Source: a virus
Strand: one strand, 5' to 3'
IMG/VR virus record: IMGVR_UViG_3300044940_000526
Coordinates: 1-32,409 of that record
Length of the DNA stretch: 32,409 nt
The position numbers and the translations under genes were made by a program. The notes under the pieces are model-generated. The model saw nothing but the letters and a program-made list of their open reading frames with translations. It did not search any database and was not told where the DNA came from. Numbering within the stretch: the stretch's first letter is position 1; every line of letters starts with the position of its first letter. Of the stretch, positions 21,451 to 25,931 are shown piece after piece.

Positions 21451-22407
21451 ATGCCCCGCGCGATCGGCGCCAACTGCCGCGTCCACATGTTCCCGGAGAC
21501 GGTCTATGGCACCGCGCCCGGCGGCAACTGGCGGCGCATGCCCTTCCTCTCGGTGGACCTCGGCGCCGAGCAGCCGCTGCTCGACAACGCGATCATCGGC
21601 GCGGGCAACAACCGCGACGCGGCGGCGCCCTTCCTCGATACCGTCACCGTGCAGGGGCAGGCGGTCGTGCCCGTCGATCAGATCAACATCGGCCACTGGC
21701 TGCGGCTGCTGCTCGGCGCTCCGACGACGACCGGCACCTCGCCGAACTTCATCCATACCTTCGGGTCCGGCGCCGCGACGCTGCCCTCGAATGCCATCGA
21801 GATCGCCTATCCGGACGTGCCGAGCTTCGAGGTGTGCACAGGCGTCCGGGCGAACAGCCTCGAAATCGACTTCTCGCCGACCGGCCCCGCGACGGCGATC
21901 TTCGGCCTGATGGCGCAGGGCAGCGTGCGCGCCGGCACGACCGGCGCCGGCACGCCGACGAGCGCGACCATCACCCTGTTCAACAAGGCGCAGGGGAGCA
22001 TCCAGCGCAACGCGGCGCCGCTGGCTCAGGTCACGGCCGCGCGGCTGTCCTTCACGAACAACATGGAGGCCGTGCGCACGATCCGCGCCGACCGCCGCAT
22101 CGAGGGCGTTGATCCGGGCATCTGCCAGGCGACGGGCCAGATCACGGTCCGCTTCGAGAACACGACGCTTCTGACCCAGGCCCAGGACGGCACGGCAGCG
22201 GAGTTCGCCCTGGCCTACACGATCAACGCCAACCGCAGCCTGACCTTCACCCTGCACGAGGTCTACCTGGCGCTGGCCAGGACCCCGATCGAGGGGCCGG
22301 CCGGGGTGGAGGCGAGCTTCGAGTTCCGCGCGGCATTCAACGCCACCGCCACCCGCATGATGACCGTGGCGCTCAGGAACGATCAGGCCGGCACGGTCTA
22401 TTCGTGA
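21451..22407 (+). CDS. Phage major tail tube protein
   Basis: A 318-residue tail tube protein whose rings form the channel of the non-contractile tail. It begins with the typical RAIGANCRVHMFPETVYGTAPGG, then MPFLSVDLGAEQPLLDNAIIGAGNNRD, and shows the beta-rich body GANSLEIDFSPTGPATAIFGLMAQGS-like and LSFTNNMEAVRTIRADRRIEGVDPG, ending in MMTVALRNDQAGTVYS. The ribosome site GGGAGG is 7 bases upstream. The next plus-strand gene, the tail chaperone, is separated from it by the antisense parDE-like module. Confidence 0.9.
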   Translation: MPRAIGANCRVHMFPETVYGTAPGGNWRRMPFLSVDLGAEQPLLDNAIIGAGNNRDAAAPFLDTVTVQGQAVVPVDQINIGHWLRLLLGAPTTTGTSPNFIHTFGSGAATLPSNAIEIAYPDVPSFEVCTGVRANSLEIDFSPTGPATAIFGLMAQGSVRAGTTGAGTPTSATITLFNKAQGSIQRNAAPLAQVTAARLSFTNNMEAVRTIRADRRIEGVDPGICQATGQITVRFENTTLLTQAQDGTAAEFALAYTINANRSLTFTLHEVYLALARTPIEGPAGVEASFEFRAAFNATATRMMTVALRNDQAGTVYS

Positions 22408-22410
22408 GGA

Positions 22411-22743
22411 TCACGTCTCGCCAAACATGCCACACAGCGCGTCCTGCGGATCGCGGGCCCCGTGCAGCACCCGCAGGATCCGTGGCGGCGTCGCCGTCGC
22501 CCGATAGACGATCACAAACTGGAAATCCGGCACGACGAGGAAACGCACATCCTCGGGCGCCAAGGCAGGGCGCCTGACGCCCATCTGCGGATAGGTCCCG
22601 ATGCGAAGGGCGGCGGCCACGACCTGCTCGCGAAGCCGCCGCGCCGCTGCCGGATTGTCGTCGGCAATGAACGCCGCTGCTTCGGCGAGGTCGCGACGTG
22701 CCTGGGCCGACAGGATGGCCGGGCGTGGGGGCGCCGAGCTCAG
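22411..22743 (-). CDS. parE: ParE/RelE-family toxin, probable CTG start
   Basis: ParE-type toxin. Only a GTG at 22620 gives a standard start, producing 69 residues that lack the first helices. The frame upstream encodes the missing family sequence (SAQARRDLAEAAAFIADDNPAAARRL), and the only sensible start is CTG at 22743, overlapping the antitoxin stop as CTGA and preceded by GGAAG at 8 bases. This gives 110 residues, the normal size. The rest shows TYPQMGVRRPALAPEDVRFLVV, VIVYRATATPPRILRVLHGARDP. ParE toxins poison DNA gyrase, RelE relatives cut mRNA; which applies is not decided by sequence. Its stop lies 3 bases from the tail tube stop. Confidence 0.78.
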   Translation of the reverse strand: MSSAPPRPAILSAQARRDLAEAAAFIADDNPAAARRLREQVVAAALRIGTYPQMGVRRPALAPEDVRFLVVPDFQFVIVYRATATPPRILRVLHGARDPQDALCGMFGET

Positions 22744-23012
22744 CGGGCGTGCTTCCGAGCCCGCTTGGCTTCCGCCTCGGCGATGATCGCGTCCATTTCG
22801 CCGGCGACCTGCTCGACCTCGAACCAGCCCGTCTCGTCAGCCTCGCGCTCCGCGGCTTCGAGCATGCGCGTGAAAGCCGCGCGCCTCTCCTCCTGGTGCT
22901 GCAGCAATCGCAACGCCGCGCGCATGACCTCGCTCACACTGCCATAGCGCCCAGAGGCCACGCAGCGCTCCGCAAAGCCTTCGAGCTCGGGCGTCAGGCT
23001 GACATTCGGCAT
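22740..23012 (-). CDS. parD: ParD-family antitoxin (ribbon-helix-helix)
   Basis: A 90-residue antitoxin. The N-terminal ribbon-helix-helix DNA-binding domain shows as VSLTPELEGFAERCVASGRYGSVSEVMRAALRLLQHQEE (about 4-42). The C-terminal helices (RAAFTRMLEAAEREADETGW) wrap the toxin. The start is ATG with AGGACGG closely upstream. A 9-bp inverted repeat lies 17 bases upstream, a likely self-regulatory operator. It shares its last bases with the CTG of the toxin. The neighbours are the convergent tail tube and the divergent tail chaperone. Confidence 0.9.
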   Translation of the reverse strand: MPNVSLTPELEGFAERCVASGRYGSVSEVMRAALRLLQHQEERRAAFTRMLEAAEREADETGWFEVEQVAGEMDAIIAEAEAKRARKHAR

Positions 23013-23082: not shown

Positions 23083-23460
23083 ATGCTCACCCTCGACCTC
23101 CCGACCGAGCCGTACTGGATCGACCTCGCGCGCGGCGTGCGGGTCGAGATCAGGCCCGTGGACACCGCCATCATGGCGGCGGCCCAGGCCGCGGCGGCAC
23201 GCCGCCTCGGCGCCATGCGCGCCGCCGATCCCGATCTCGATCCCGACCTCGCGCGCGGGCTCGCCTTCGCGCTGCTCTGCAAGGGCCTCGCCCGGCACGC
23301 CATCACCGCCTGGGAGGGCGTCGGCGACGCGGCCGGCAAGCCGCTGCCTCTCACGCCCGAGGCGGCCGAGCGACTGATGGACCTCGACGACATGGCCTCC
23401 TCCTTCTGGGACGCGATTTCCCGTCCGCTGGCGGCGGTGGCGTCCGAGGGAAACGGCTGA
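23083..23460 (+). CDS. Tail assembly chaperone (gpG-like)
   Basis: A 125-residue protein equivalent to lambda gpG, the short form of the tail assembly chaperone that coats the tape measure. It is mostly helical after LTLDLPTEPYWIDLARGVRVEIRPVD, with AAAQAAAARRLGAMRAADPD, LAFALLCKGLARHAITAWEGVGD and ERLMDLDDMASSFWDAISRP. The last codons, GGA AAC GGC TGA, contain the slippery heptamer G GGA AAC in the correct phase. The position right before the tape measure and the overlapping -1 frame extension support the assignment. GGAG precedes the ATG by about 5-8 bases. Confidence 0.82.
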   Translation: MLTLDLPTEPYWIDLARGVRVEIRPVDTAIMAAAQAAAARRLGAMRAADPDLDPDLARGLAFALLCKGLARHAITAWEGVGDAAGKPLPLTPEAAERLMDLDDMASSFWDAISRPLAAVASEGNG

Positions 23461-23494
23461 GGGGCCGCGCCGAATGGCATTTCGGCGTTGGCCC
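23448..23494 (+). promoter_or_regulatory. Programmed -1 ribosomal frameshift signal (slippery site plus stem-loop)
   Basis: The heptamer GGGAAAC (23448-23454) is in the X XXY YYZ phase of the tail chaperone frame. After a 7-base spacer a stem-loop begins: outer arm GGGCC (23462-23466) with GGCCC (23490-23494), and inner arm CGCCGAA (23468-23474) with TTCGGCG (23481-23487) around a 6-base loop. The lambda G/GT site is the closely related GGGAAAG. Shifting at this point joins the gpG-like protein to the extension ending at 23798. Confidence 0.85.
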
Positions 23495-23798
23495 GGAATA
23501 CTGCCGTGGCTGCGCTGGCTTGCAACGCGACTGCGGCATCCAATGCCCGTACGCCGTCCACGCCCCCGCCAGTGCCGAAGCCGCCGCCGTCTGGCGGGCG
23601 GGAACGGCGGCGGCGAGGATCGGGCCGGCGGGGCTCGAGGTCGATGTGGCCGGCGCCGTCGCGCTGGCCGCGGCGGCCGGTGTCACCGGATGGGCGGCGG
23701 CCGAGATGATCGCGGCGTTCCGCGAGGGCGTGGACCTGGGGCAGGCGGCCCGGCGCAGCCGCGCCCCGGCGGCGGATGGAGGCGGCGAGAATGGCTGA
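23454..23798 (+). CDS. Tail chaperone C-terminal extension (gpT-like), expressed by -1 frameshift
   Basis: About 114 residues in the -1 frame after the slippery site, giving a fusion of about 238 residues from 23083. It begins RLRGRAEWHFGVGPEYCRGCAG, then has four cysteines in the pattern CxxC-x6-CxxxC that could bind metal, and ends with a helical GVTGWAAAEMIAAFREGVDLGQAARRSR. There is no start codon with a ribosome site for independent translation. In lambda the equivalent GT form is made at a few percent and binds the tape measure while recruiting tail tube subunits. The end overlaps the tape measure start by 8 bases. Confidence 0.8.
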   Translation, partial: RLRGRAEWHFGVGPEYCRGCAGLQRDCGIQCPYAVHAPASAEAAAVWRAGTAAARIGPAGLEVDVAGAVALAAAAGVTGWAAAEMIAAFREGVDLGQAARRSRAPAADGGGENG

Positions 23799-24654
23799 CG
23801 CCACCCGGCGCGTCTCCGTCCGGCTGTCGCTCGATGACGGCGCGCGCGTCAAGCAGGGCATGCGCGAGATCGGCGAGGCCGGCGACCGCGAGCTCAAGCG
23901 CATCAAGGACGGGGCCGATCGCGCCTCGCAGTCCCTGCGGCTTCTCGATGCGGCGACGCGCGCGCTCTCCTTCCTCGGCGTGGCGGCCGGTCTGCGCGCG
24001 CTGGTCACGGCCGGCGATCAGCTTGCCGCGTCCATGGGTCGGCTCACGAACGCACTCGGCAGCGTCGAGCGGGCCGGCGAGGTCTATGAGGCCCTCTACA
24101 GGGACGCCTTGCAGACCGGCGTGGCGGTGCGCGAGAGCGCCGAAACCTTCAGCCGCTTCTCCATCGCGGCGCGCGAGATCGGCGCGACTGCGGAAGAGGT
24201 GCTCCGGCTCGTCACCGGCCTGCAACGGCTTGCGATCTCCTCCGGCGCCAGCACGCAGGAAATCCAGGGCAGCACGCAGCAGCTCGCGCAGGCGCTCGCC
24301 TCCGGCGTCCTGCAAGGCGACGAGCTTCGCAGCATCCTCGAAGGGATGCCCCGCCTTGCCCAGGGTCTCGCGCGCGAGCTCGGCGTCTCCATCGGCGAGC
24401 TTCGCAAGATGGGGAGCGAGGGCAAGCTCACCGCCGATACGGTGTTCCCGGCGCTGCTTCGCGCGGTCGAGCGCGTCAACGGGGAGTTCGACCGCGCGCC
24501 GCTTTCGGTCGGACGCGCCTTCGGGCAGTGGCGGCCGCGGCCGACCAGTGCCTCGCGCGACTGGATCAGGCGATCGGCCTGTCGAGCCGTCTCGCGCAAG
24601 GGCTTTCGGCCGGGGCGTGGGCGCTCGACACCGTGCGGCGCGGGGCGGGGCTGA
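23791..24654 (+). CDS. Tail tape measure protein, N-terminal part (frameshifted near 24526)
   Basis: N-terminal portion of the tape measure that sets tail length. It shows the usual domain: DATRRVSVRLSLDDGARVKQGMREIGEAGDRELKRI, then LSFLGVAAGLRALVTAGDQLAASMGRLTNALGSVERAGEVYEALYRDALQTGVAVRESAETFSRF-like (about 55-125), STQEIQGSTQQLAQALASGVLQGDELRSILEGMP and TADTVFPALLRAVERVNGEF. The ATG at 23791 has GGAGG upstream. From about 24526 this frame becomes Arg/Ser nonsense, while family sequence continues in the -1 frame; one extra G in the run at 24527-24531 would give FGQVAAAADQC. True sense here therefore ends near 24526. Confidence 0.86.
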   Translation: MADATRRVSVRLSLDDGARVKQGMREIGEAGDRELKRIKDGADRASQSLRLLDAATRALSFLGVAAGLRALVTAGDQLAASMGRLTNALGSVERAGEVYEALYRDALQTGVAVRESAETFSRFSIAAREIGATAEEVLRLVTGLQRLAISSGASTQEIQGSTQQLAQALASGVLQGDELRSILEGMPRLAQGLARELGVSIGELRKMGSEGKLTADTVFPALLRAVERVNGEFDRAPLSVGRAFGQWRPRPTSASRDWIRRSACRAVSRKGFRPGRGRSTPCGAGRG

Positions 24655-25931
24655 TGACAGAGAGCGAGCGCGTCGCCGACATGCGCGCGCAGCGCGACGC
24701 CATCGCGGCCGAAATCCGGCGCCTGGAGCAGGAGGCCGAGCGCCCGCCGCCGCGACGCGGCACGATCCGTCGCGGGCTGACGGGCATCGCGGAGCGCCAG
24801 GCCGGCGTCGATCGCGCGCGCCGTCTCGAGGAGCTTCGCCAGCAATACCGCGAACTGAACGAGGAGATCGAGCGCCAGGAGCGGGAGGCCGCCGAGCGCT
24901 CCGAGGCCGAGCGGGAGGCGGCGGCGCAGCGCGCGGCCGAGGCGCGTCGTCGTCGAGCAGAGCAGGATGTCACGGAGCTTCGCCGGAAGCTCGAAGCCGA
25001 GTTCCGCATCCAGGAGGAGTTCGAGGAACGCATCCGTCGCCTGCGCGAAGCCGAAAGCTCAGGCGCCATCGACGCGGCGGAGCGGCAGCGTCTGGAAGCC
25101 CTGGCGACGCGCGAGCGCGACGAGGCCCTGCGCCGCCTGGAAGGCTCCGTCCGTCGCGTCACGGCGGCGCAGCGCGAGAACCGCGACGCCGAGCGCGAGA
25201 CGAACGACATCCTGCGCGAGCGCGAGCGGCTGATCCAGAACAACGAGGACGCGCAGGAGCGCTACGCCCGCCGCATGGAAAACCTCGGTCGGCTCGTCGA
25301 GCGCGTCGAAAGCATCGGGTTTCCGATCCCGGACGAGACGATCTCTCGCGAGGCCCAGGCCGCGCTGGACGAGCTTGAGCGTGCGCAGAACCGCCTGACC
25401 GACGCCACCAGCCGGACTTCGGACACGGCCCGCGAACTCGGCCTGACCTTCTCGTCGGCCTTCGAGGACGCGGTGATCCGCGGGAAGAAGTTCTCCGACA
25501 TCCTCAAGGGGATCGGCCAGGACATCGCGCGCATCATCGCGCGCCGGACGATCACGGAGCCGCTCGGCAATGCGCTGAACGGCGTTCTGTCGGGCTTGTC
25601 CTTCGGGAACGTGTTCAGCGGCATCGGCTCCTGGCTCGGCGGCCTCTTCCGCGCCGAGGGCGGGCCGATCGCCGCCGGGCAGCCCTACATCGTGGGCGAG
25701 CGCGGGCCGGAATGGTTCGTGCCGAAGCAGGCAGGCGCCGTCCTGCCGAACGGCACTTCGCCCGGCGGCACCACGATCAACACCAGCATCGCCATCGACG
25801 CCCGCGGCGCGGATGCCGGCGTCGAGGCGCGGCTGCGGATCATGGGGGCGCAGATCGCCCGGCAGGCTTCGGCGATGACGCTGGACGCCATCCGCCGCGG
25901 CGGCGCGGCCTACGAGACGGTGCGCGGATGA
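24528..25931 (+). CDS. Tail tape measure protein, C-terminal part
   Basis: Continuation of the tape measure in the -1 frame, 467 residues. It has a long charged coiled-coil region (about 50-300, rich in Glu/Arg) and a C-terminal domain typical of tape measures: TSSAFEDAVIRGKKFSDILKGIGQDIARI, FSGIGSWLGGLFRAEGGPIAAGQPYIVGERGPEWFVP, and TTINTSIAIDARGADAGVEARL. It begins with a GTG without a good ribosome site, so separate translation is unlikely. With one base restored, both parts make about 713 residues. It is coupled to the next gene by ATGA. The break probably abolishes normal tail length control. Confidence 0.86.
   Translation: MAAAADQCLARLDQAIGLSSRLAQGLSAGAWALDTVRRGAGLMTESERVADMRAQRDAIAAEIRRLEQEAERPPPRRGTIRRGLTGIAERQAGVDRARRLEELRQQYRELNEEIERQEREAAERSEAEREAAAQRAAEARRRRAEQDVTELRRKLEAEFRIQEEFEERIRRLREAESSGAIDAAERQRLEALATRERDEALRRLEGSVRRVTAAQRENRDAERETNDILRERERLIQNNEDAQERYARRMENLGRLVERVESIGFPIPDETISREAQAALDELERAQNRLTDATSRTSDTARELGLTFSSAFEDAVIRGKKFSDILKGIGQDIARIIARRTITEPLGNALNGVLSGLSFGNVFSGIGSWLGGLFRAEGGPIAAGQPYIVGERGPEWFVPKQAGAVLPNGTSPGGTTINTSIAIDARGADAGVEARLRIMGAQIARQASAMTLDAIRRGGAAYETVRG

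Follow-up and report, generated by a model that had tools for sequence, protein, structure and literature searches.

The window analysed here is a virus record taken over its full 32,409 bases (IMGVR_UViG_3300044940_000526, positions 1 to 32,409), in which a tail tube gene (PF18906) is followed by a tail assembly chaperone gene (PHROG 313) and a tape-measure gene (PF20155), the placing seen in lambda-type phages (Table 1). A Pfam search with the chaperone returned no match. Between the tube and chaperone genes lies a ParD-type antitoxin gene on the minus strand (22740-23012; PF03693, E 1.4e-12), for which a toxin partner was looked for and none was identified. A break in the reading frame divides the tape-measure gene (23791-25931), leaving 287 aa, a length also found in three near-identical metagenome contigs (L002-L004) that are identical over the chaperone; the gene is intact, at 713-718 aa, in L005, L007, L039, L109, and L113. 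As its tape-measure gene is broken, the window copy may be a defective prophage or under relaxed selection, though its frameshift site is intact.

Table 1. Coordinates of the tail genes and frameshift features in the window.
Feature	Position	Strand	Remarks
Tail tube protein gene	21451..22407	+	Pfam PF18906 Phage_tube_2, E 2e-51; PHROG 290
Tail assembly chaperone gene, G-like	23083..23460	+	125 aa; PHROG 313, E 1.2e-17
Slippery heptamer G_GGA_AAC	23448..23454	+	In chaperone phase, one codon before its stop
-1 frame extension, T-like	23448..23798	+	Stop 23796-23798
7-nt spacer	23455..23461	+	Contains 0-frame stop TGA, 23458-23460
Two-part stem-loop	23462..23494	+	Arms 23462-23474 and 23481-23494, one bulge
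Cys4 motif C-x2-C-x6-C-x3-C	23502..23546	+	C19, C22, C29, C33 of the extension
C-terminal part resembling Pfam DUF7697 / PHROG 11212 of relatives	23625..23768	+	From alignments; bounds approximate; window copy gives no profile match
Tape-measure gene, N-terminal part	23791..24654	+	Pfam PF20155 TMP_3, E 1.5e-48; frame broken

A preliminary description of this sequence had proposed a lambda-type programmed -1 frameshift at the end of the chaperone gene, and its reading of the site agrees with what we found. The chaperone frame ends GCG TCC GAG GGA AAC GGC TGA, placing GGGAAAC in phase in the last codons, where it is the sole in-phase heptamer of the form X_XXY_YYZ in the gene; in eight other ORFs of the window, such in-phase heptamers occur at only 3 of 3883 codon positions. 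The 7-base spacer is present as described, and the -1 frame is open for 116 codons when the two slippery ones are counted, which yields the predicted 114 residues past Asn124 and takes the extension just beyond the tape-measure start, its stop overlapping the ATG at 23791. GGGAAAC occurs three times in the window versus 1.5 expected, which is within chance, and many long ORFs overlap in this DNA. By itself, the window sequence does not make a compelling case for the site; it is conservation in relatives that establishes that the heptamer is more than a chance occurrence.

The comparison with close relatives covered 164 chaperone sequences, comprising the window, two sets of virus loci (13 and 70), and 80 genome loci, mostly from Acetobacteraceae; these counts, and those that follow, are of records rather than of events, because some viral and genome loci represent the same prophage (for example, L005 and L109) and L002-L004 do not differ over the chaperone. 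This revealed GGGAAAC at the same place in 160 of the 164. At the site, the glycine codon was GGA in 160/160 sequences, whereas in the bodies of the same chaperones GGA made up 8 of 1093 glycine codons. The exceptions were a locus with a stop codon at the site (L057) and three in which the chaperone frame is disrupted or ends differently (L147, L177, and L183), while in L112 the heptamer is kept with a different sequence behind it.

The same extension was also found behind more divergent chaperones. An in-phase heptamer preceded the extension in 18/18 cases, 14 of them virus loci and four phage records, the heptamer being AAAAAAG in 14, GGGAAAC in the phages RcKai and RcKemmy, AAAAAAA in Nostoc phage Nsp-JY21, and AAAAAAC in MT836000. 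Of 398 genomes from the same phylum, 14 were matched by a profile of the extension. The Cys4 extension is present in five distinct copies in the 3.8-Mb genome of Rubritepida flocculans (G001), which implies that this one genome contains several related prophages or prophage remnants. Outside this genome there were 26 places, two of which were dropped from the count: G013:C13, which carries AAAAAAC, and L219 (G235:C6), a partial match in which a T-like end directly follows tail-tube-like sequence with neither chaperone nor Cys4 part, and which is a prophage remnant. In all 24 places examined, the extension began precisely at a heptamer (22 AAAAAAC, one GGGAAAC, and one AAAAAAA). Further virus loci had a heptamer in 121 of 126 cases (120 AAAAAAC and one AAAAAAA), versus a background of in-phase heptamers at 16 of 11167 positions in chaperone bodies; the five without one were a locus at a contig edge (L294) and four in-frame fusions. 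Three heptamers besides GGGAAAC, namely AAAAAAC, AAAAAAG, and AAAAAAA, occupy the same place.

A downstream stimulatory RNA structure is frequent, although not universal, in lambda-type frameshifts. The two-part stem-loop that had been noted behind the spacer is present in the window, with a predicted energy of -25.6 kcal/mol over 50 nt. Over 61 nt, the energy was -29.7 (z -1.6) and 14 of 200 shuffled sequences folded equally well, while comparison with synonymous recodings of the extension gave a non-significant result (p 0.17), so that "ideal", the word originally applied to the stem, was an overstatement for the window copy. When 86 unique sequences were assessed against the same synonymous-recoding null, 21 fell below 0.05, with a mean z of -1.44. 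We also scanned folding energy by position, using 42-nt windows at offsets of -150 to +198 about the heptamer and leaving out L112. Mean energy was lowest at offset +12, counted from the first base of the heptamer, in group g1 (-25.4 versus an offset mean of -15.4; n 136), in group v3 (-24.4 versus -13.4; n 73), and in group v7 (-29.2 versus -11.7; n 38), and each of the 38 v7 sequences had its own minimum within +6 to +24. The structure signal was weak and shifted in group g2 (AAAAAAG, 11 sequences). The stems of the groups are unlike in sequence. Among close relatives, again without L112, covariation counts in two pairing registers were no higher than in shuffled alignments, since the outer stem is variable in register, and the alignment of the AAAAAAC group held too little variation for covariation analysis. 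By position, the family evidence for a structure downstream of the heptamer is strong.

The extension itself behaves as a coding sequence with a characteristic cysteine pattern. In the -1 frame the codon-position bias was 31761/30758/104095, and AlphaFold2 returned a confident fold for the window extension (pLDDT 90.5, pTM 0.81). Across 47 non-redundant rows, W10, G15, Y18, C19, C22, and C33 were invariant and C29 was conserved in at least 90%, with loops of varying length between the cysteines; the extension therefore carries four conserved cysteines in two pairs, as a zinc-binding (Cys4) domain would, and these may bind a metal. The CxxC-x6-CxxxC motif had been noted in this sequence as a possible metal-binding variation. 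The motif is there, as C19-x2-C22-x6-C29-x3-C33, but it is a hallmark of the extension family across prophages and phages of diverse hosts rather than a peculiarity of this phage. With the heptamer and the cysteines, whose conservation had been proposed as a check, the phase, place, and downstream structure are kept over hundreds of relatives' records.

Searches of sequence libraries recovered only part of this protein. The window extension had no Pfam match at E 1 and fell short of the DUF7697 cut-off (27 bits), a value exceeded by its relatives L035, L037, L206, L207, L339, and L348. In relatives, the DUF7697 (52 positions) and PHROG 11212 (55 positions) models match only the second half of the extension, suggesting that these library families are truncated pieces of frameshift products. 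The Cys4 domain had no match in Pfam, PHROGs, or NCBIfam. Fold searches of the PDB with the extension and with a fused protein (see below) gave no match at E ≤0.001, VIA-align returned only Z < 5, and sequence searches of the PDB gave nothing convincing; fold matches in BFVD were weak (best E 0.05) and include several tape-measure or tail-assembly chaperones.

The four in-frame fusions among the virus loci (L324, L326, L339, and L348) lack the heptamer and encode chaperone and extension in one continuous ORF, 252-260 codons long. A search with these four returned 12 loci, of which eight were fused contigs (the four queries and L358-L361) and the other four had AAAAAAC. The fusion junction aligns without a gap to the -1 product of frameshifting on AAAAAAC (AAKN-RIR versus EAKERIR). 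On a 54-row tree with midpoint rooting only, all fused rows group together (support 96/90) in a single clade that lies among frameshifting rows and requires one change. These rows have neither a conserved heptamer nor a stem, their folding energy at +12 being -8.1 versus a mean of -7.8 (8 sequences), although their G+C content is lower (0.49-0.58 in the four measured, versus 0.63). No second chaperone was seen on the four fused contigs searched, which are fragments. AlphaFold2 modelled the fused L348 protein with a pLDDT of 87.7 and a pTM of 0.73, with one helix (residues 129-148) running across the junction. The simplest reading is that the frameshift was lost a single time, when the two parts fused into one gene. 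The fused clade is a natural control for the -1 product and shows that this product is the protein kept by selection.

These observations bear on other ways in which the second frame could be expressed. The second frame might instead be an independently started gene, in line with the annotation of Nostoc phage Nsp-JY21, where a short second gene begins at an internal ATG; the DUF7697 and PHROG 11212 models likewise cover that second half only. An internal start would, however, omit the entire near-invariant Cys4 region, as the annotated second gene of Nsp-JY21 does. Start codons are also missing where they would be needed: among 261 unique stretches, 259 have no ATG, GTG, or TTG between the heptamer and the first cysteine, and 191 have none from the upstream -1 stop to the first cysteine. 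In the window, the -1 frame is kept open by an upstream GTG, so that the argument against initiation elsewhere comes from the relatives. Neither the heptamer nor the gap-free in-frame fusions would be explained by a separate gene. The preliminary description had named homologues with no slippery site and a separately started second gene as evidence that would count against a frameshift. None of the homologues proved to start a Cys4 gene on its own; where the extension occurs without a heptamer, it is either fused in frame or at a contig edge (L294). We therefore consider a separate gene very unlikely.

Just as unlikely is that the long form arises from transcriptional slippage on a homopolymer run rather than from slippage of the ribosome. 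The sites of many relatives are runs of six or seven A, and polymerases slip on runs of this length, but the window and its close relatives have GGGAAAC, with no run longer than three, and the invariant phase and the stem-loop 5-7 nt downstream fit ribosomes. Finally, the possibility that open frame and heptamer are accidents of GC-rich DNA, or that the site is a decayed remnant, to which the overlapping ORFs, the unremarkable GGGAAAC count, and the broken tape-measure gene of the window might point, is refuted, as far as comparison allows, by the confident fold and by the fact that numerous relatives conserve the heptamer, the cysteines, and the codon-position bias, and its likelihood is negligible.

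Taken together, the computed signal, its phase and conservation, the coding character of the extension, and the in-frame fused clade make it very probable that a programmed -1 ribosomal frameshift operates in this phage tail-assembly chaperone gene and gives a G-T-like fusion; the lambda-type reading first put forward for this DNA is supported by the conservation of heptamer, phase, place, downstream structure, and cysteines. We infer that shifting takes place and at what relative frequency, as well as the role of the products in assembly, along the following lines. Most ribosomes would terminate at 23458, yielding the short G-like chaperone, while a minority, delayed by the stem-loop 7 nt downstream, would slip back one base on G_GGA_AAC and read 114 more codons, producing a G-T-like fusion of ~238 aa. 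The domain added in this way would comprise a four-cysteine knuckle first and a helical part at its end. By analogy with lambda, the short form may coat the tape measure, with a few long forms recruiting the tail-tube protein.

A broader reading takes the Cys4 extension to be a metal-binding T domain, largely missed by annotation because it would be reachable only through frameshifting, and the fused clade to have given up making two products and to build its tails with the long form alone; we hold the arguments for and against this reading to be about evenly weighted. If it is true, the long-form-only tails of the fused phages would contrast with the balanced ratio needed by lambda. The fused clade offers a way to test whether tails can be assembled with a fused chaperone or truly require both forms at a set ratio.

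Lambda-type tail frameshifts are widespread among known systems. The review PMC5009743 gives a G/GT ratio of about 30:1 in lambda. It also covers the g-t frameshift of haloarchaeal virus HCTV-1, which has an archaeal host and the same heptamer, G_GGA_AAC. An AAAAAAC site has been proposed for the chaperone frameshift of Acinetobacter phage Loki (gp12/gp13; PMC5313236) and a putative UUUUUUC site for SPP1 (PMC6316719). The Loki chaperone was among the weak BFVD fold matches. In HK97, a script scan found no strict X_XXY_YYZ heptamer.

Closer counterparts are the Rhodobacter capsulatus phages RcKai and RcKemmy, which share both the GGGAAAC site and the Cys4 extension and in which the annotation has a joined frameshift CDS; the extension also matched nine more R. 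capsulatus phages, under two chaperone features. The chaperone of these phages is ~34% identical to that of the window. RcKai and RcKemmy differ in that the 0-frame continues for ~30 codons past the site and that the second cysteine pair is CxxC. A paper on R. capsulatus phages (PMC8601537) mentions that a frameshift is usually found in these genes and does not contain the word "cysteine". In a limited literature search of titles and the starts of abstracts, no description of a Cys4 extension or a fused chaperone was recognised. At the level of protein families, Pfam DUF7697 (PF24752) and PHROG 11212 resemble the C-terminal half of the extension in relatives, and DUF1799 (PF08809) bears a more distant likeness to the same half; none of the three models includes the Cys4 half, and all are listed as of unknown function.

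Compared to lambda G/GT, the site shares its position between the tail tube and tape-measure genes, an X_XXY_YYZ heptamer that is in phase with the chaperone frame and close to its 3' end, and a -1 extension that ends at the tape-measure start. The lambda signal is GGGAAAG, which, with its phase, was confirmed on J02459, versus GGGAAAC in the window, and the family described here differs from lambda in having a strong stem-loop. The chaperone matched lambda G with an hhalign probability of only 0.1%, its assignment coming from the profile match to PHROG 313. The extension and lambda T aligned weakly over 25 columns (probability 21%, E 0.001), with the first 25 residues of lambda T corresponding to part of the sequence behind the Cys4 region. 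The T region of J02459 encodes no cysteines, in agreement with the earlier statement that the motif is absent from lambda gpT, whereas the Cys4 region here lies between the heptamer and the helical part; as a lead only, the Cys4 knuckle may be an insert between the site and the T helix. The mechanism is known from lambda G/GT; the Cys4 extension family, a conserved four-cysteine domain present only on the frameshift product, and the fused clade appear to be new.
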